From positions 1 through 26,265 of IMG/VR virus record IMGVR_UViG_3300025087_000279: a stretch of DNA of 26,265 nt. One strand, given 5' to 3'. Source of the DNA: a virus. The position numbers and the translations under genes were made by a program. The notes under the pieces were generated by a model. The model saw only the letters and a list, made by a program, of their open reading frames with translations, ran no database searches and was not told the DNA's origin. This document shows, piece after piece, positions 1,819 through 26,265 of this stretch; within the stretch, counting starts at the first letter, position 1, and each line of letters begins with the position of its first letter.

Positions 1819-4800
1819 ATGGCCGACGATCGGATTGTAACATACAGAGAACTCCCCCTCAACGGGCGTTTGAGGACAAACGACGATCCCGCTGAACTTG
1901 TGTCCGAAGGCAACGTCGTCGATCTATCTTTACTTCAGAACATGCGGTATTTCGACAGCCACCTTCAGGGCATTGGTGGAACGACGAAGATCAACACCAC
2001 GGTCTTAGGCAATCCTCAGATAAAGAACATGTTCCAGTTTCGTAAAGACTCGCCCGCCGAGTCGAACGTCCTGGTCGCAGCCAGAGACTCTAACGGGCTG
2101 AATCAGAAGGTTTATCGAAACGGGACTGCTATACCGTCTGCGGGAGACTTCACAGCAACGGCTTTATTTACAGACTCGACAGGGTATGGCACACCCATGT
2201 TCTCCACGGCCCCAGGCGAGAAGGCCATTTACTGCAACGGCAAGGATACTGCCATCTGGGGTGGGTCCGAGATGAAGCCTATAGGCTTTATCGACATGGA
2301 CCCGAACGGAACCTATAAATATGACTACACAGAGCAGGTTAAGAACTCATTAACCGACTCTAATAATATCGCGACGTTGCATCGTAGGGCGGACACCGTA
2401 GACGCGGCGACAATGGCTCTATGGCATTTCGACAACAGCCCAAATGATGCTACGGCTGCGGCGCACAACCTTACCGAGGTAAGTGCCGCCTATAGTACGT
2501 CCGTTAAAAAATTCGGGACGCATTCGGTCGGCGGCAGCGGTGGGTATTTCACCATTGCGGACCACGCGGATTTTGATTTTTCCGGCGGGACGTATTCCAT
2601 AGATTTCTGGATAAATCCCACGGCAAAAACCGGAACCATATACCACCAAGGGAGTGCGACGGACTACTATAAGATTTACTTCAACGGCAGTGGCGTCCTC
2701 GTCATGGACATATACGCGGCTTCCTCGCTTGTTCTGTCGCATGGAATAGATGTTTTGTCCCCGCTGCAACTTGGTGTATGGTCCCACGTTGCTTTAGTTG
2801 AGAGCGGGAACAACTACTATCCCTTCGTAAATGGAGCGTCGCTCAACACCTATTCTGGTGTTGAACGAGCCGCCAATTATGCCTCGGCTATCGCGATAAA
2901 AGCGATGAACGACGGGTCAACGATATTTAATGGATACCTCGACGAGTTTCGTGTTTCCAATTCCGCCCGCTGGACTGATTCATTCGACCCGCCGACGCTC
3001 GCCTACGGTTCGACAACCATCACAAGCATCTATGTCGGGTCTCAACTCCCGGTCCAGGGTGTCAATCCCTACGTTGTAACGGCGAACACGACAGCGGGTG
3101 CGGTCACTGGGAACTATTGGAGTTCTTCAGGCTGGGCTTCTCTTGGAGCAGTCTCCGGTGTCGGTGCGACTCCGCTTTCGGCAGTCGGCAAGAATACGTG
3201 GACGTTTACATCTACGGCTTCTATAGTAAGACAAAAGGCAATAGACGACAAAGTGGCTTATTGGTATCGGTTTGATATAACCGACTGTGACGCAACGACG
3301 ACCATCTCGCAATTGACCTTAGATACGCCAGTCCAGGCCCTCAAAGAGTTATGGGACGGGCAATACAGGACAGTAAATTCTTTCCTTGTCTACAAGAACA
3401 GCACGTTCAACGATTACGCGGTCAACGTGTTCGAAGATTCATGGACTTCTACCGATACAAATACGTTCGTCGAACTTGATAGTCTCGCCACCGCGACTGA
3501 TGCTTTATATATCGGGTTCAGCGAAAGGCAGATGGGGTTAAGGCTTAACCTCATCGGTGGGCATGTCAACACCACTGCAAGTACGATTGCTACAGTTTCG
3601 TATTACAACGGGACCGGCCTCGCGACGAATTCGGATTCTTGGACCTGGGTCGGGACTACAGACGACGGCACAGCAAATGCAGGTATCGCCGTTTCTAAGA
3701 GCGGTACGGTTACGTGGACCCCCCCGGCGTTGTCTGCGGAGTTCAAGGTTTCTATATCCGGCAGCATGACTGGGGATCGCGTAATAGATGTCCTCCTTAA
3801 CCCATCCAATGCCCCCGCTCAGTCGCAGAGGATGTATTTTTATAAAGTCGTGTTCTCGCAGAACCTTTCGGCGGACGTTCAGTTGTTCTTTATCGGCGGT
3901 ATCACGGCACCTGAAGATGTGGCCGGGCACAAGTTCGCCGTACACCACGTAGACCGTGTGTGGTATTGGGGTAGCGAGAAAGATCCTCATCTCGGTTTCT
4001 GTACTTCGCGGGAGACGGCGCAGGTTTTACGCGGGGCGGACACTGTAAGTTTCTACCTCAAAAACACTCCTGTTGCTGGAATCTCGTTATTTGAACGGTA
4101 CGGGTCTACAGCGGCGAACGTGCAGTTGGTCTGCGAGCCGACGAGAACATGGGCTATCGTTGGGGAGACTGTCGAGAACTTCGTTCCAAACTGCATAGAT
4201 TCATCCAATGGTTGTACGTCCGCGTTGACGATGGATGTCGCGACTGTTGAAATTCTCCCGGGGACCTTCCGGCGTGTCGGGATGTGGCAGTCGCAAGGCG
4301 GAATCGTAATCTGCGACGGTTCGTCCGTCACCGAAGTCTCCCATGACATCAAGGACAAGTTCGATCCGAAACACGCAAACTACATCGGGGCGTCGACTTT
4401 GGCGGCCTGCTCGGGCTGGATAGATCCTGTCTACAACGAGTACAACTGGGTGATTCCTGGCACAACCATATGGGCATATGATATCCTGAGAAAGAAGTGG
4501 TACGAAAAGCCGCTCGCCACATCCAAGCGGCCTTCTTGTGGGTTGGCGGTCTACGACACCAACGGGATAGCGTACTCCTACGCGGCGACGGCCTCTGGAT
4601 TCATGTATCGTATGGAGTACGGGACCACGATCGATGGGACGGCGATCCCCTTCGCGGTGCAGATTGCGGATGTCGCGCCTACGGGGTCGATCTCAGATCG
4701 GACAGAGGCGTGTTCCGTCCGGTTGGTGGGCAAGGCGAAGACCACGACGACTCAGGCCGTCCTCATTGAGCATTTCGGGGATAGTTCTACGACTGCGTCT

Positions 4801-5007: not shown

Positions 5008-6207
5008 ATGGCATACGCCTATGATGCTGGATTAATCGACCGGATCATGCCGAGGATAAAACAATACGAAGCCACGACCGGGCGCAAAATCAGCCAGTCG
5101 GTGCTCGATGCTTTGATGAAGGGCCAGTTGTCCGCCGAGGTCGACAAGGCGCAGCAGACCCGTGCGATCGATCTTCAGGAAGAGCAGTTCGCCAATCAGA
5201 AGGATCAGCAGAAGAAGGCGGCTAAGGCGGCTTCGGTCAAGGGGTACGTGGATACTGCATCTACGGCAGGCATGGGGTACCTCACCTATAAGGCAGTCAC
5301 AAAGCCGTCTGCGATGTCTGAATTGCTTGCCTATCAGAAAAGCATTGGGGCAACCCCGGCCATAACGGGGGCAGACATTACGGCGGCTGGCGGGTCATTT
5401 GGTGCTCCGACAGCAGAGGCCGCAGGGTACGGGTTGACCGCCCCCGGATATACCGCCCCCGCGTTTACTGGAGCGCAGACGACCCTTGCGGGAGGGACGG
5501 CAGCAAGTGGCGCTCAAGCAACGCCAGCAGTGTACGGGACCGGGGAATATGCCGCCTACGATGCGTCTCTTGCGGCCGGGGCATCTGAGGGGGTTGGGAC
5601 GGCGACATCGGCGGCCTCCATGCTTGGGCCTGTTGCTGGCGGTGTCGGCGGCGGACTTTTGGGCGCGGACCTTGCTGTAAATAAATTACACCTTTTCGGA
5701 GCGGGGAAACCGGGGCATATGGGCGGGGAGACAAACACGGCAGCGGCTGTCGGTGGGGCTGTCGGTGGGGCAGCCGGAGGCGCACTTATAGGATCACAGG
5801 TGGGATCTGTTGGCGGACCCGTCGGTGCAGCTGTTGGCGCAATCGTTGGCGGTGTTGTCGGGTGGGCGTCAGAGGCATCGGTAATTTGTAGCGAACTTGT
5901 CCGCCAGAAACGCATCTCCGAGCGCGAGAGGACTGCCTGCGTTATCTTCCGCTTCCGGTATATCCCAGACGACATGTTCATGGCCTATCTCGAATGGGCG
6001 GAACCTATAGTGCGCCTTATGCGAAACAATAGGGCGGCTAACTTCTTCCTTGTTCCGTTTGCGATGCATTTCGTGGGTTACATGCTGGCGGTTCAGGCCA
6101 AGGTGGAACCTACGATTACCGAACGCCTTGTATGGAAATACGCTTGGTGGAGATGCAGCGAGATTGCTCGACGTACCGAGCAATTCGTTAAGGAGGTGGC
6201 CGCGTAA
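5008..6207 (+). CDS. Glycine-zipper internal/tail protein with Cys-containing C-terminal domain
   Basis: This 399-aa protein starts after AGGAGG at 4998-5003. Residues 1-90 are charged and helical, about 90-290 are very rich in Gly, Ala and Val with repeated AVGGAVGG-type glycine-zipper segments able to insert in membranes, and about 290-399 form a separate domain beginning ICSELVRQKRIS and containing EWAEPIVRLMRNN. Similar C-terminal domains occur at the ends of other phage tail/ejection proteins, in my recollection. Because it precedes two further internal-virion-type genes, it is probably a minor virion protein ejected to help DNA cross the envelope. That role is inferred from composition and order. 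Confidence 0.65.
   Translation: MAYAYDAGLIDRIMPRIKQYEATTGRKISQSVLDALMKGQLSAEVDKAQQTRAIDLQEEQFANQKDQQKKAAKAASVKGYVDTASTAGMGYLTYKAVTKPSAMSELLAYQKSIGATPAITGADITAAGGSFGAPTAEAAGYGLTAPGYTAPAFTGAQTTLAGGTAASGAQATPAVYGTGEYAAYDASLAAGASEGVGTATSAASMLGPVAGGVGGGLLGADLAVNKLHLFGAGKPGHMGGETNTAAAVGGAVGGAAGGALIGSQVGSVGGPVGAAVGAIVGGVVGWASEASVICSELVRQKRISERERTACVIFRFRYIPDDMFMAYLEWAEPIVRLMRNNRAANFFLVPFAMHFVGYMLAVQAKVEPTITERLVWKYAWWRCSEIARRTEQFVKEVAA
5745..5768 (+). repeat. Perfect 12-bp tandem duplication in the glycine-zipper segment
   Basis: The unit GGCTGTCGGTGG occurs twice back to back, with a degenerate third copy after it. It encodes AVGG repeats in frame, so its copy number could change the length of the predicted membrane-inserting segment without breaking the gene. 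Confidence 0.85.
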
Positions 6208-22126: not shown

Positions 22127-23071
22127 CTACAGCCCGAGTGCCTTCGTGATCTCGTCGTCCGACATAACAGCGGCAGAGGCCGCAGGAGCCGGTTCCGCCG
22201 GAGTAGGAGGCCGTCCGGAGCCGCGTTTGCGAGACGGAACGGGTTCAGTGACCTTCCCAGATGCGGCGAGGGTCTGAGCCGTCGTCGCCTGCGGTACTGC
22301 CGCTGCCACTGCATCCACTACTGCATCGCTTTTTGGAGGCGGCAACGCTCTGTACTCCATCGGGCAAACGATGTCCGCGACCTCCTGCGACTTGCTGACG
22401 GTAAGTAAAGCCTCCTTCGCAGATTCCGGGATGAACGCCCCGACCCGGAACTGCAACACGGAGTAGTCAGCATCCTCGTCAAAGCCGACGTAGGTGATGA
22501 CGTTCCCGAGAGGCACTCCGCGATTCGTGAGGTTCTTCACGTACAGGCCGAAGTTCTTGAGACTCGCAGGCGGGATCTTGAACGAATAGACCGATCCCTT
22601 GCGGAACACGGCGAGGATTTTGCTGTCCACACACGCCTTGCCCTTGGTGGGCTGCCCCGCCGCGTTGCGACCGGAGCCAAAAGCGTTCATCGGGCAGGTG
22701 CCGCAGGTCGGGTTGACCGGCTTGTTGACGGACTTGTCGGGGGTCACGCCGTCCAAGGAGAAGCAGTCCGGGGCGGAAGGCTCCACCTGGTTCGGGTCGT
22801 ATGCGGCCTCGTAGTAGACCTTGTTCAACCCCGGCTTGGCGGCGAGAATCACGATGTCCAGATACTCCCCCCCGGCGAGGTCGTTGGGTTTGAGGTTAAT
22901 CTCGTCCCCGTTGCCGTCCACGATACGGAACCCGTTGCGCTTGATCCGGATTGACGGCGGGAAGCCGGTGGAGATGCCCTGTAACGCATCAGCGTTCAGC
23001 GTCTTCGCTTCGTTGATGGCGAGTGCGAAACTCGGAATGTCTTTCGGAATCTGTACCAGATCGGTGCTCAT
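22127..23071 (-). CDS. Putative SSB-like replication protein with acidic C-terminal tail
   Basis: The 314-aa protein has an N-terminal globular domain (about 1-245) that begins with an OB-fold-like segment (GISTGFPPSIRIKRNGFRIV), a cysteine cluster (CGTCPMNAFGSG, then KACVDSK, about 143-172) that may bind zinc, and further strands to about residue 245. An Ala/Pro/Lys-rich linker (about 250-300) follows, then a short acidic tail ending SDDEITKALGL. Globular domain, disordered linker and acidic tip are the organisation of single-stranded DNA-binding proteins, and it sits in the replication block. I cannot name the family, so the function is an inference from architecture. AAGGGGGG precedes the start. 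Confidence 0.55.
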   Translation of the reverse strand: MSTDLVQIPKDIPSFALAINEAKTLNADALQGISTGFPPSIRIKRNGFRIVDGNGDEINLKPNDLAGGEYLDIVILAAKPGLNKVYYEAAYDPNQVEPSAPDCFSLDGVTPDKSVNKPVNPTCGTCPMNAFGSGRNAAGQPTKGKACVDSKILAVFRKGSVYSFKIPPASLKNFGLYVKNLTNRGVPLGNVITYVGFDEDADYSVLQFRVGAFIPESAKEALLTVSKSQEVADIVCPMEYRALPPPKSDAVVDAVAAAVPQATTAQTLAASGKVTEPVPSRKRGSGRPPTPAEPAPAASAAVMSDDEITKALGL

Positions 23072-23090: not shown

Positions 23091-23312
23091 TTATACTTCG
23101 TTTTCGTTCCTTGCGATCGCTGAATTTGCCCACATGACGACTTCTTCCAACTTCGTCAGCGCGAGCGACTGTTCCCTGCTCGTCGGCGTGGCCCCCAAGA
23201 TCAGAGCCGCGAACGCCTTCGCCATTTCTCGGATCGTTACGTACCGCTCTTGCTGGTTCCCCTTCGGCGGATGGTACGTGTACACCTTGTCTAATTCCGT
23301 TCCTTGCGCCAT
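23091..23312 (-). CDS. acb2: Acb2-like anti-CBASS cyclic nucleotide sponge
   Basis: The 73-aa protein matches my recollection of the Acb2/Vs.4 family (DUF7681): an N-terminal YTYHPPKG segment, then two helices (IREMAKAFAALILGATP, then the signature SREQSLALTKLEEVVMWANS with AIARNE). Acb2 proteins are small helical oligomers that bind cyclic di- and trinucleotides and so prevent CBASS effectors from being activated. This copy is slightly shorter than described ones but keeps the signature helix. It starts directly after the stop of the gene upstream (no gap) with AGGA about 10 bases before ATG. Not recognised: residues that would tell which cyclic nucleotide is bound. Confidence 0.85.
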   Translation of the reverse strand: MAQGTELDKVYTYHPPKGNQQERYVTIREMAKAFAALILGATPTSREQSLALTKLEEVVMWANSAIARNENEV

Positions 23313-23534
23313 TTACGTGAGTCCTGCAAGAGCGTCAGAGTTTGCGTTGGGCGTTGCCCCCCGTTTCTTATTCGGCCCGCGAGGTTTCCGCGCCGCCTTC
23401 GCCGTCGGCTTGACCGGTTTCACGATCGACCGCAACGACGCGCCGAGGTCGGCATCCGGCACGATCAGCCCCGTCTGCCCCTCCATCGGGATAATGCAAC
23501 GCCCACCTTCGATCAGTTCTACTTCGAATTTCAT
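23313..23534 (-). CDS. Small basic protein with Lys/Arg-rich tail
   Basis: The 73-aa product has a compact acidic N-terminal half (MKFEVELIEGGRCIIPMEGQ) and a basic C-terminal half with Pro-Arg-Gly and Lys-rich patches (ARKPRGPNKKRGATP), reminiscent of an AT-hook-like or nucleic-acid-binding tail. AGAGGAGG before ATG is one of the strongest ribosome binding sites in the block. No family is recognised. It is placed immediately before the Acb2-like gene and its stop abuts that ATG, so the two are co-translated. Confidence 0.65.
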   Translation of the reverse strand: MKFEVELIEGGRCIIPMEGQTGLIVPDADLGASLRSIVKPVKPTAKAARKPRGPNKKRGATPNANSDALAGLT

Positions 23535-23555: not shown

Positions 23556-24254
23556 TTAAGAGATTGGGGTTTTGTTGTTTCCGTGGTCTTCCAGTTCCCG
23601 CAAGGCGGCGCATAACGCCACAATGGGGTGTTCGTACTCTTCTCTGAAAGTTGCCTTCCTCCAGTCGCCCAAGTGATGCGTTGCCAGTGCATCCGCCGCC
23701 TCGCACGCGGCGATCATCGATCGAGCATCGTTGCGGAGGGCGGCACAGGACGGGCAATCGTGTACCTGATTATTTACGCCTTCGTTCAGGTTAACTACCG
23801 GATACCACGCCTTGACCCTATAATCCTCAATCTTCCCTTCGTCGGGCCGATCAGGATTCGGATCACGCACTACCTTCCCGTCCCAATAGACGGCATGTGT
23901 GCAACCCGGAAGGCGATCGCTATAAACGGTCAACTCTGCGGCGAGGTAGTCCGGTATCCGGCACAGGATTCCTCGATTCCCACCCTCGGTTTCCCATTTA
24001 GGTTGTCCGTCGCATAGTGCGCCTACGGCGTTGCGGGCGATCCCGCGAGATGCGAGAAAGGCAGAGATTTCGTTATCCATGAACCCACGCCGCTTCTCGG
24101 GGTGCCGGTTGCGTTCATCGTTATCAATGGCCGATCCGTCGTGCCCACAAAACTGGAACACTTCTTCGACTTCACACCCTGCGATCATGGCAGCGACATA
24201 GGCCATGCACCGAAAAGTGTCCGGCTGTTTCAACGTCTTATTAGGCCAAGTCAT
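23556..24254 (-). CDS. Predicted papain-fold cysteine peptidase-like protein
   Basis: The 232-aa product shows the pattern of a C39/papain-like cysteine peptidase: Gln10 then Cys16 in LKQPDTFRCMAY (oxyanion Gln and nucleophile spacing), His120 in LPGCTHAVYWDG, and an Asp/Asn (131-133) in VVRDPNP. A C-terminal domain (about 165-230) carries a CxxC (DCPSCAAL) and helical, charged sequence. Such folds include peptidases, transglutaminase-like and amidase-like enzymes, so the substrate is unknown. It overlaps the upstream gene as ATGA with GGAGAGGG before it. Located in the early/accessory block, it may process a host protein. Activity is not proven by sequence. Confidence 0.6.
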   Translation of the reverse strand: MTWPNKTLKQPDTFRCMAYVAAMIAGCEVEEVFQFCGHDGSAIDNDERNRHPEKRRGFMDNEISAFLASRGIARNAVGALCDGQPKWETEGGNRGILCRIPDYLAAELTVYSDRLPGCTHAVYWDGKVVRDPNPDRPDEGKIEDYRVKAWYPVVNLNEGVNNQVHDCPSCAALRNDARSMIAACEAADALATHHLGDWRKATFREEYEHPIVALCAALRELEDHGNNKTPIS

Positions 24255-24652
24255 TTCCCTCTCCTCACGTTCACGCCTTCGACGCGAACGAAATTCACTC
24301 CCGGAGGCGGTTCGTGTGTGTAGTTCCCGTTCCGGTCCTCCTCCATGCGATCCTTCACTGCGGACTTACTTACCCTCCTTTCGAGCAAGTCCCAAGCCTC
24401 TGATTTTTTTATGAACCCGAGAAGCACGTCCCAGTCCGCGACCGTTGCCGATTCCCTGTAGGCGATGTAAGCCGTCCCATGCGCCGTCTTGACGCTCGTC
24501 ACTCCATTCGCGTGCATAATCTCGCGGATCTTGTCTCCGATCGCATCTTGGAGGACGCTCAAGGCCGCTTCAGCATCTTCCGCCTCTTTCTTGATCTTCG
24601 CTTTCCGTTCCCGCAGTTCGATGTACTTGGCGGTCAGGTCGTCTACGTTCAT
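24251..24652 (-). CDS. Conserved phage early protein, unknown function
   Basis: The 133-aa protein has an N-terminal helical, charged stretch (about 7-47, coiled-coil-like), a central domain (NGVTSVKTAHGTAYIAYRES, about 50-69) and a tail rich in charge and Pro (EPPPGVNFVRVEG). The GVTSVKTxxGTAY block recalls small proteins common in phage early operons, with no assigned function. It overlaps its neighbours as ATGA on both sides, behind GAGGAGG. No membrane segment or catalytic residue is visible. Confidence 0.7.
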   Translation of the reverse strand: MNVDDLTAKYIELRERKAKIKKEAEDAEAALSVLQDAIGDKIREIMHANGVTSVKTAHGTAYIAYRESATVADWDVLLGFIKKSEAWDLLERRVSKSAVKDRMEEDRNGNYTHEPPPGVNFVRVEGVNVRRGK

Positions 24653-24885
24653 GGCAGATCCTCCTCACCCCTCCGGATCACCAAAGCGCGGGTCCGTAAA
24701 ATATCCATTGTCTTCCGACACGCCAAGGCTAAACCTTTTGCAGCGTTGGCAAGCGGATCGTACTGCTCCCCAACGGTAAACTTGCGCCCCTCGTTTATGG
24801 GCCACAACCCCCCGCCGCTATCTGGTGCCTCTCCACGAACGAACGCTTCTCGTTTTCCCACGGATAAGTATTTTCCCGCGTTCAT
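24649..24885 (-). CDS. Small early protein, unknown function
   Basis: The 78-aa protein (MNAGKYLSVGKREAFVRGEA at the start) has no recognised domain. The middle is Gly-rich (DSGGGLWPINEG), and the second half is a likely helix (ANAAKGLALACRKTMDILRT). It starts in an ATGA overlap with the Dam-like gene and is preceded by GGAGGGAGGAG, a strong ribosome binding site. It belongs to the coupled early operon. Confidence 0.65.
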   Translation of the reverse strand: MNAGKYLSVGKREAFVRGEAPDSGGGLWPINEGRKFTVGEQYDPLANAAKGLALACRKTMDILRTRALVIRRGEEDLP

Positions 24886-25328
24886 GTCTCCTCCCTCCTT
24901 TTCAACGCCACAGAAAAACGACAGTAAACAGAATACGACATCCGGAAAGGATCAAAATCCCGAGCAGTCGAAATCTCTGGAGCGGTCCTCCAGACTACAG
25001 ACGCAACCGACTCAATCCGTCGCAAAATCGTTGTGTCCACGAAAAGAACAAAGGCATAAAACAGTCCTTCGGCGTCGGATTTCCCGGCGGTACACCCCGG
25101 AAATGGAAACCGATGGTGCTCGGTCGTTGGCCCGTGCATTACGCCCGATGAGTCTATTAATTGGATCACCCCCGCCTTTTTCAATGTCTCATTCACTCCA
25201 TGCATATACTCGGACAAAGCACGGCCAAGCCACTGAGCGTCGATATCCACCATATCAAAGTTGAACTCTGCCATGAGCGGGTCAAATATCTCAGGCGGTG
25301 TCTGCCACCGTTCGTGGTCGTTCGTCAC
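24882..25328 (-). CDS. Dam-like methyltransferase relative lacking the catalytic core
   Basis: The 148-aa product starts at GTG 25328, overlapping the helicase stop as GTGA, behind AAAGGAGGGA. The N-terminus (WQTPPEIFDPLMAEFNFDMV, about 8-27) matches phage N6-adenine methyltransferases of the Dam type (PF05869). The C-terminal half (HRFPFPG, then AEGLFYAFVLFVDT) recalls the GRxxF and following strand near the end of that family. Between them, where the family normally has the DPPY/NPPY catalytic motif, only a short helix (WLGRALSEYMHGVNETLKKA) is found, so about 40 residues seem to be missing and no DPPY is present. It may be inactive, DNA-binding only, or a diverged protein. Alignment is from memory. 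Confidence 0.55.
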   Translation of the reverse strand: MTNDHERWQTPPEIFDPLMAEFNFDMVDIDAQWLGRALSEYMHGVNETLKKAGVIQLIDSSGVMHGPTTEHHRFPFPGCTAGKSDAEGLFYAFVLFVDTTILRRIESVASVVWRTAPEISTARDFDPFRMSYSVYCRFSVALKRREET

Positions 25329-26265
25329 TTCCGTCCCTCCTTTGCGAGTTCCAGAACCAAGTCTTGCAGTCGTCTGCGCTCCTTCAAAGTCTGGTAGAGC
25401 CTTCTTTCAACTGCCGATCCATGCAACATGATAATGTGGGCGGTCTTTACCTGTCCCGGTCTCGATATTCTTGCATTCGCTTGTAGGAACGTCTCCGTCG
25501 AGGTCACAGGCGCGGCCCAGACGATCGTCGTCGCTGCCGTGAGGGTCAACCCGTGGGCCATCGTTCCTGGGTGCGCGAGAATGACACGCGGGTTAACCCC
25601 CTCTTGGAAGTCTTTGAAGATCCTATTCCGCTTGGAAGCCGAAACAGATCCATCGACTATTTCGACTGACCAGTGGTTCTTTAATTCATCATAGAAACGG
25701 AGCAACGCACCTGTGTACGGCACAAAGACGATCACCTTCTCGTCGCATTCCTCGATCACCTCCTTCAAGACTTTCAGCCGAGGACCAAAATCCATATCCA
25801 CGACCCCGCCCGCGCCGTCGTACATAATGCCGAGGCTCGCTTGGCAAAGTTTCCCGAGAAGCACCCCGGCGTTGACGGCACTTATGCTCGTGCCTTGGAT
25901 CTCCGTGAAACACTGTCGTTCCATTTCCTTGTAGTGTTTCTGCTGCTGCGGCGTGAGTTCACATTCCCGCTCCTGGTAGATCGTCGGTGGCAGGTCGAGA
26001 CAATCTTCAAGAGCGAATCGAATAGAAGGCTGCATCAGTTCGTATACTCGTTCAGCAGAGCCGTGTTTCGGCACCCACTTGAATTGACTGACCTGCGTCA
26101 TCAGTTCGTTCTGGATGGTGCGGAAACCTTTCGTGTACCTCTCCGGCGTGAGGAGCCGGATCTGCCCGAAGCAGTCGGTCGGAGCGGTAGGCGTCGGCGT
26201 TCCTGTGAGGCCCCACGCGGAGCGGGGGATGTTCTGCCGGTTGAGAATGGCGAACATGGTCCGTG
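25325..26265 (-). CDS. SNF2-type DEAD/H helicase, 5' end outside the window
   Basis: The reading frame is open at the window edge, so the gene's beginning (Walker A and DEAH motifs) lies outside. The visible about 313 residues contain the end of helicase domain 1 (WGLTGTPTPTAPTDCFGQIR, motif III), an accessory stretch (ELTPQQQKHYKEMERQ), then domain 2 with VIVFVPYTGALLRFYDEL (motif IV), VILAHPGTMAHGLTLTAATT (motif V) and QANARISRPGQ (motif VI with its Arg fingers). This is the SNF2/SWI2 helicase-like family found in many phages, an ATP-driven translocase in replication, recombination or counter-defence. Its stop overlaps the next gene as GTGA. Confidence 0.85.
   Translation of the reverse strand, partial: RTMFAILNRQNIPRSAWGLTGTPTPTAPTDCFGQIRLLTPERYTKGFRTIQNELMTQVSQFKWVPKHGSAERVYELMQPSIRFALEDCLDLPPTIYQERECELTPQQQKHYKEMERQCFTEIQGTSISAVNAGVLLGKLCQASLGIMYDGAGGVVDMDFGPRLKVLKEVIEECDEKVIVFVPYTGALLRFYDELKNHWSVEIVDGSVSASKRNRIFKDFQEGVNPRVILAHPGTMAHGLTLTAATTIVWAAPVTSTETFLQANARISRPGQVKTAHIIMLHGSAVERRLYQTLKERRRLQDLVLELAKEGRK

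Follow-up and report, generated by a model that had tools for sequence, protein, structure and literature searches.

Acb2-type proteins are hexameric sponges that bind their ligands tightly without degrading them, and effector activation is lost (PMC10097602, PMC12043709, PMC12657218). For T4 Vs.4 (Acb2; PHROG 717, PDB 7uq2), an 88-aa protein, the complex with cGAMP has been solved and loss of the protein sensitises T4 to CBASS (PMC10097602). Further structurally solved members are the 93-aa PaP2/PaMx33-type Acb2 (p26, PDB 8h2j/8h2x), with a long connector between its helices, and Acb2 homolog 43 (9ptq). Tad1 carries the hairpin together with an extra N-terminal beta-sheet domain, and a review describes its homologues as conserved in the binding of both cyclic trinucleotides and gcADPR (PMC12043709). 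The same activity can be a liability, as Panoptes-type defence is triggered by Acb2 (PMC12657230). The Acb2 identity of proteins like the one described here is already published at the level of annotation, given the labels ‘cyclic nucleotide sequestering protein’ for StellaBean gp101 of a cluster E mycobacteriophage, ‘CBASS antagonist’ for Xandras gp101 and BigBubba gp102, also from cluster E (PMC11953737), and putative Acb2 in Microbacterium phage Statler (PMC13348362).

Here, we analyse a relative of these proteins in a viral sequence of 26,265 nucleotides (IMG/VR record IMGVR_UViG_3300025087_000279, hereafter the window). The minus-strand ORF at 23091-23312 has an uninterrupted translation of 73 aa, which includes SREQSLALTKLEEVVMWANS; the full product is MAQGTELDKVYTYHPPKGNQQERYVTIREMAKAFAALILGATPTSREQSLALTKLEEVVMWANSAIARNENEV. 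The gene and its start region are as follows.

23091-23312, minus strand: acb2-like gene for a 73-aa Acb2/Tad1-hairpin protein (PF24729, 69.4 bits; PHROG 1454, E 7e-23; AF2 model).
23313-23325, minus strand: AGGA Shine-Dalgarno at 23325-23322 and TAA stop of the upstream ORF at 23315-23313 (sequence).

The AGGA lies 9 bases upstream of the acb2 ATG, and translational coupling with the upstream ORF is probable because the stop of that ORF directly abuts this ATG. Compared with the approximately 80%-identical copies in two related loci, L005 and L006, the changes are distributed 10/9/24 over the three codon positions, with third positions dominating, and the dN/dS of approximately 0.2 indicates purifying selection. 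The Shine-Dalgarno, the abutting start, the third-position changes and the dN/dS all point firmly to a real, selected gene.

The Pfam model PF24729 (Acb2_Tad1_hairpin) matches residues 12-68 of the protein along profile positions 1-58 of 58, that is, over the full domain, with a score so far over the cut-off (69.4 bits against 27, E 2.9e-19) that a chance match is not a sensible explanation. On the same model the proven Acb2, T4 Vs.4, scores 71.4 bits as a control, and the assignment is therefore equal in strength to that of a proven member. Judged by this profile, the 73-aa protein is a member of the Acb2/Tad1-hairpin family. An initial annotation, made from the sequence alone, had placed the product in the Acb2/Vs.4 family and named a PF24729 search as a check; that search is significant, and the placement is backed by the profile, the predicted fold and the key residues.

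Within the family, the protein falls into PHROG 1454 (E 7e-23), a sister clade to that of Vs.4, whereas the homologues in the Vs.4 paper were taken from PHROG 717 (PMC10097602). Searched against the PDB, a clade profile built from 21 relatives of the window protein finds Acb2 homolog 43 (9ptq), Tad1 and Vs.4 with E-values of 1e-7, 2e-3 and 0.12, respectively, and with bit scores of 21.4 for Tad1 and 15.8 for Vs.4. Aligning the PHROG 1454 and Vs.4 clades with hhalign gives E 1e-4 at a probability of only 57%, in a register that pairs Y13 with Y8 and R28 with K23. When Vs.4 is added to 90 relatives, the resulting profile, run on the PaP2 genome, finds p26 (E 3e-5), whose identity with the crystallised Acb2 of 8h2j was checked; the 21-member profile gives no significance against the single p26 sequence, so this relative is found through the larger profile only. 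PADLOC and NCBIfam hold no match for the acb2 protein. The nearest solved relative by profile, homolog 43, has a similar length and a REKS..TKLEE motif, but lacks the Tyr (FDTH against FTYH in the window protein) as well as the MWAN and IAR residues. Among the cluster E ‘CBASS antagonist’ proteins, which are known from annotation and have approximately 35% identity, StellaBean gp101 is found directly by tblastn with the window protein.

The AF2 monomer model of the 73-aa protein (mean pLDDT 84.6, approximately 92-97 in the hairpin) consists of a short N-terminal helix at residues 7-10 and helices at residues 18-41 and 46-69, which make up a single domain and nothing else. The helices and the residues taken up below map to the window as follows.

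23190-23261, minus strand: predicted hairpin helix 1, residues 18-41 (AF2 model).
23106-23177, minus strand: predicted helix 2, residues 46-69, which holds A51 and A62 (equivalent to Vs.4 A66 and A77) and T53 (equivalent to T68) (AF2 model, alignment).
23274-23276, minus strand: Y13 codon, equivalent to T4 Vs.4 Y8 and PaP2 Acb2 Y11, which stack on the cGAMP base (alignment, profile alignment, PMC10097602).
23229-23231, minus strand: R28 codon, equivalent to Vs.4 K23, a polar contact to cGAMP (alignment, PMC10097602).

The initial annotation had also proposed a structural comparison with Acb2. Made on the monomer model with Foldseek against 350,542 PDB chains, it places Vs.4 and PaP2 Acb2 at ranks 2-5, although each has E >1 and none is individually significant, because a small helical hairpin is a generic shape. 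The predicted fold is thus consistent with Acb2 rather than independent proof of it. Like Vs.4, the window protein has a short N-terminal helix followed by the hairpin, with a shorter helix connector; it shares its predicted fold with PaP2 Acb2. The Tad1 N-terminal beta domain is absent, as the chain has just 11 residues ahead of the hairpin and the model shows no strands (Pfam, AF2). In contrast, the SREx3ALTx2EEx2MWxN motif is common to the clade and Tad1, in which the hairpin likewise reads SRE...ALT..EE..MW.N. With the Tad1 motif kept and the Tad1 beta domain absent, the window protein reads as a hairpin of Acb2 size whose second helix resembles that of Tad1.

Residue conservation was assessed through alignment to Vs.4 and to 90 distinct relatives of the window protein, with the cGAMP contacts, the hexamer and the mutants of Vs.4 taken from PMC10097602. 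The counterparts of Vs.4 Y8, K23, A66, A77 and T68 are each kept in more than 90% of the relatives: the Y13 column is 95% Tyr, the R28 column is 97% Arg (K26 being the PaP2 counterpart), the hexamer-interface alanines A51 and A62 are Ala in 95% and 97%, and T53 is kept in 96%. The T68M change at the last of these positions reportedly lowers the ligand affinity of a T4-like Acb2 (PMC12657230). The Vs.4 interface residues L29, A66, A73 and A77 correspond to F34, A51, V58 and A62, all small or hydrophobic as before. However, three of the five cGAMP contacts of Vs.4 are replaced, with H11, R79 and F82 becoming P16, S64 and A67, and these columns are largely conserved in the clade (96% Pro, 91% Ala and 91% Ala, respectively). 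R46, E47, N63 and R68 are near-invariant and are the clade's own. In a hand alignment PaP2 Acb2 also lacks a Phe of the F82 type; hence, this Phe is no family requirement, and the R79/F82/H11 pocket marks the Vs.4 branch only.

The reading that we favour, and regard as likely, is that the window protein is an Acb2/Tad1-hairpin sponge, that is, a hexameric, non-catalytic protein that sequesters cyclic di- or trinucleotide immune signals. Each 73-aa chain would fold into the short N-terminal helix and the two-helix hairpin, and the chains would assemble into a hexamer. The hexamer would tightly bind, without degrading, the cyclic dinucleotide and/or trinucleotide signals of CBASS or related systems, so that signal-dependent effectors would stay off and the phage cycle could be completed. 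Because H11, R79 and F82 of the T4 Acb2 contacts are replaced, cyclic di- and trinucleotides as ligands of the PHROG 1454 clade are something that we infer, and the exact ligand could be another than the one bound by T4 Acb2; the literature searched contains no ligand-binding data for this clade. Such a sponge could also leave the phage open to defence of the Panoptes type.

The altered pocket bears on the first alternative, namely that the protein is a sponge for a signal other than the dinucleotides of T4 Acb2, either a cA3-type cyclic trinucleotide bound at the trimer interface or, in the manner of Tad1, a cADPR-type signal of Thoeris. The clade shares the long second-helix motif with Tad1, which outscores Vs.4 in the profile search, and has lost R79 and F82 while R46, E47, N63 and R68 are near-invariant; the conserved trinucleotide and gcADPR binding described for Tad1 homologues points the same way. 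On the other hand, the N-terminal beta domain that helps to form the gcADPR pocket of Tad1 is missing, and the clade keeps, almost without exception, the Tyr and the basic residue that pair up in the dinucleotide site of Acb2. We consider such a change of signal quite possible, although short of an even chance. Carried further, the PHROG 1454 clade could form a distinct sponge class that bridges the Acb2 and Tad1 types, with a pocket rebuilt by gain of R46, E47, N63 and R68 and loss of R79 and F82 and with a signal outside the set of dinucleotides known for Acb2; we put this forward tentatively, as a rather unlikely case.

Relatives are found at 532 or more loci in IMG/VR and in 273 isolate-phage records, mostly labelled hypothetical, from phages of Mycobacterium, Paenibacillus, Gordonia, Streptomyces and Arthrobacter, cyanophage S-2L and others, and a scan of genome contigs gives three cellular loci only. 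No near DNA match was found in isolate phages. The DNA of L005 and L006 is approximately 80% identical to the window across 215-221 bases, which is essentially acb2 alone, with no similarity beyond acb2 in the flanks compared. As these copies share nothing else and the contexts vary, acb2 moves, judging from the comparisons, as a single gene. A closer relative, L004, is approximately 90% DNA-identical to the window and keeps acb2 without the peptidase-like gene and a 78-aa ORF. Between L004 and the window, acb2 has a dS of 0.04 against 0.27-0.78 for the neighbouring genes. A recent transfer of acb2 between the two was considered and dropped, as a sliding comparison gives other stretches at 97-99% in the same region, and the high identity of acb2 is therefore just part of a mosaic. 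In Paenibacillus phage Lily (L035:3992-4868), a relative at the end of the genome is flanked by a serine recombinase on one side and a hicBA toxin-antitoxin pair on the other, and StellaBean gp101 adjoins a ClpP-like protease gene.

The close relatives thus occur in many contexts, some near structural genes, which counts against the sponge reading in so far as they lend it no independent functional support. This leads to the second alternative, a hairpin protein of sponge descent with a different present role, for example as a regulator or a binder of a host protein. It would fit the relatives that adjoin structural genes, such as that of Gordonia phage ChisanaKitsune between portal and RNA ligase, and the partial alteration of the known ligand pocket. 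Against it, the residues of the interface, the basic position and the stacking Tyr hardly vary across the 90 distinct relatives; a conserved site for a small molecule accounts for this better than a protein partner that shifts, and we regard a changed role as improbable.

Along the direction of transcription, the genes around acb2 are a SNF2-type helicase (25325-26257), the 148-aa ORF with a Dam-like start, the 78-aa ORF, a Gam/Gp157-like protein, the peptidase-like ORF, a basic 73-aa ORF, acb2 itself, a 314-aa phrog_27714 protein, a small HTH protein and a DUF927 primase/helicase. From this gene content we infer that the surroundings are an early/replication operon. The neighbours discussed here are the following.

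24882-25328, minus strand: 148-aa ORF whose first approximately 25 residues resemble phage Dam, the rest being an unrelated small protein.
24251-24652, minus strand: 133-aa Gam/Gp157-like protein, which also matches PHROG 13900 ‘minor head protein’ (E 7e-22).
23556-24254, minus strand: ORF of 232 aa that reads as papain-like, with FRC close to its start and GCTHAVYWDG and VRDPNP further on.
23313-23534, minus strand: basic 73-aa ORF directly upstream of acb2 in the same operon, no family match (ORF list, Pfam, PHROGs).
22127-23071, minus strand: 314-aa phrog_27714 protein, the next gene downstream in the same operon (PHROGs), with a possibly metal-binding cysteine cluster, CFSLDG..CGTCPMN..GSGR...GKAC.

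The initial annotation had taken this neighbourhood to suggest a counter-defence island of a basic mini-protein, a cysteine peptidase-like protein, two orphan early proteins and a Dam-like remnant. The basic mini-protein is there, directly beside acb2. The peptidase is a reading of the sequence with no Pfam or PDB match; this 232-aa ORF has no IMG/VR relative outside the same virus and is absent even from the approximately 90%-identical L004. The Dam-like remnant is weak, as the Pfam Dam score is 14.3 bits against a cut-off of 28.1 and the phrog_111 match covers residues 3-25 only. In L004 the remainder of this ORF stands without the Dam-like start, and we accordingly read the 148-aa ORF as a natural N-terminal swap and not a decayed Dam. 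Of the two orphans, one (24251-24652) has a Mu Gam/Gp157-like or Pam3-gp33-like match, below the Pfam cut-off; its ‘minor head protein’ label looks doubtful, given that the gene lies in the replication operon. Neighbour recurrence was scored at 110 loci with relatives, and none extends beyond the same species-level group except a scattered terminase (11) and a ParB/methylase-like gene (10), both by reading.

Anti-defence genes cluster in some phages, and the genes here are adjacent and on one strand, but a dedicated island of acb2, basic mini-protein, cysteine peptidase and Dam remnant is rejected as highly improbable: no acb2 neighbour is conserved outside the same species-level group, L004 keeps acb2 without the peptidase and the 78-aa ORF, acb2 occurs elsewhere without this set, and those flanking genes that match a family (SNF2 helicase, Gam/Gp157-like, HTH and DUF927 primase/helicase) are mostly genes of replication and DNA metabolism.

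L006 carries two identical type I-C-like CRISPR repeats (4073-4108 and 5947-5982, GCGAGTTCGCGCCCGCGCGGGCGCGTGGATTGAAAC), and one of these lies just upstream of acb2. Such solitary repeats are found in L006 and in no other viral contig, and Rfam has no match in the window, L002, L005 or L006. By reading against L005, an exonuclease-like ORF is cut short by the first repeat, and the second interrupts the start of dnaB. A chimeric contig, with a host array bearing spacers against the phage, is for this reason at least as likely as solitary phage repeats of the RNA anti-CRISPR type. An RNA anti-CRISPR link to acb2 was dropped, given that the repeats occur in a single contig and interrupt ORFs.

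The window protein is a clear but ordinary addition to a known sponge family. With it, a proven anti-CBASS family now reaches a large and mostly ‘hypothetical’ clade of actinobacterial, Paenibacillus and environmental phages. If the clade does bind cyclic nucleotides, signal sequestration would be far commoner in phages than the T4 and Pseudomonas cases suggest, and this would be relevant to the Panoptes-type systems that such sponges set off. Through the altered pocket, the evolution of ligand choice between Acb2 and Tad1 can be tested directly.
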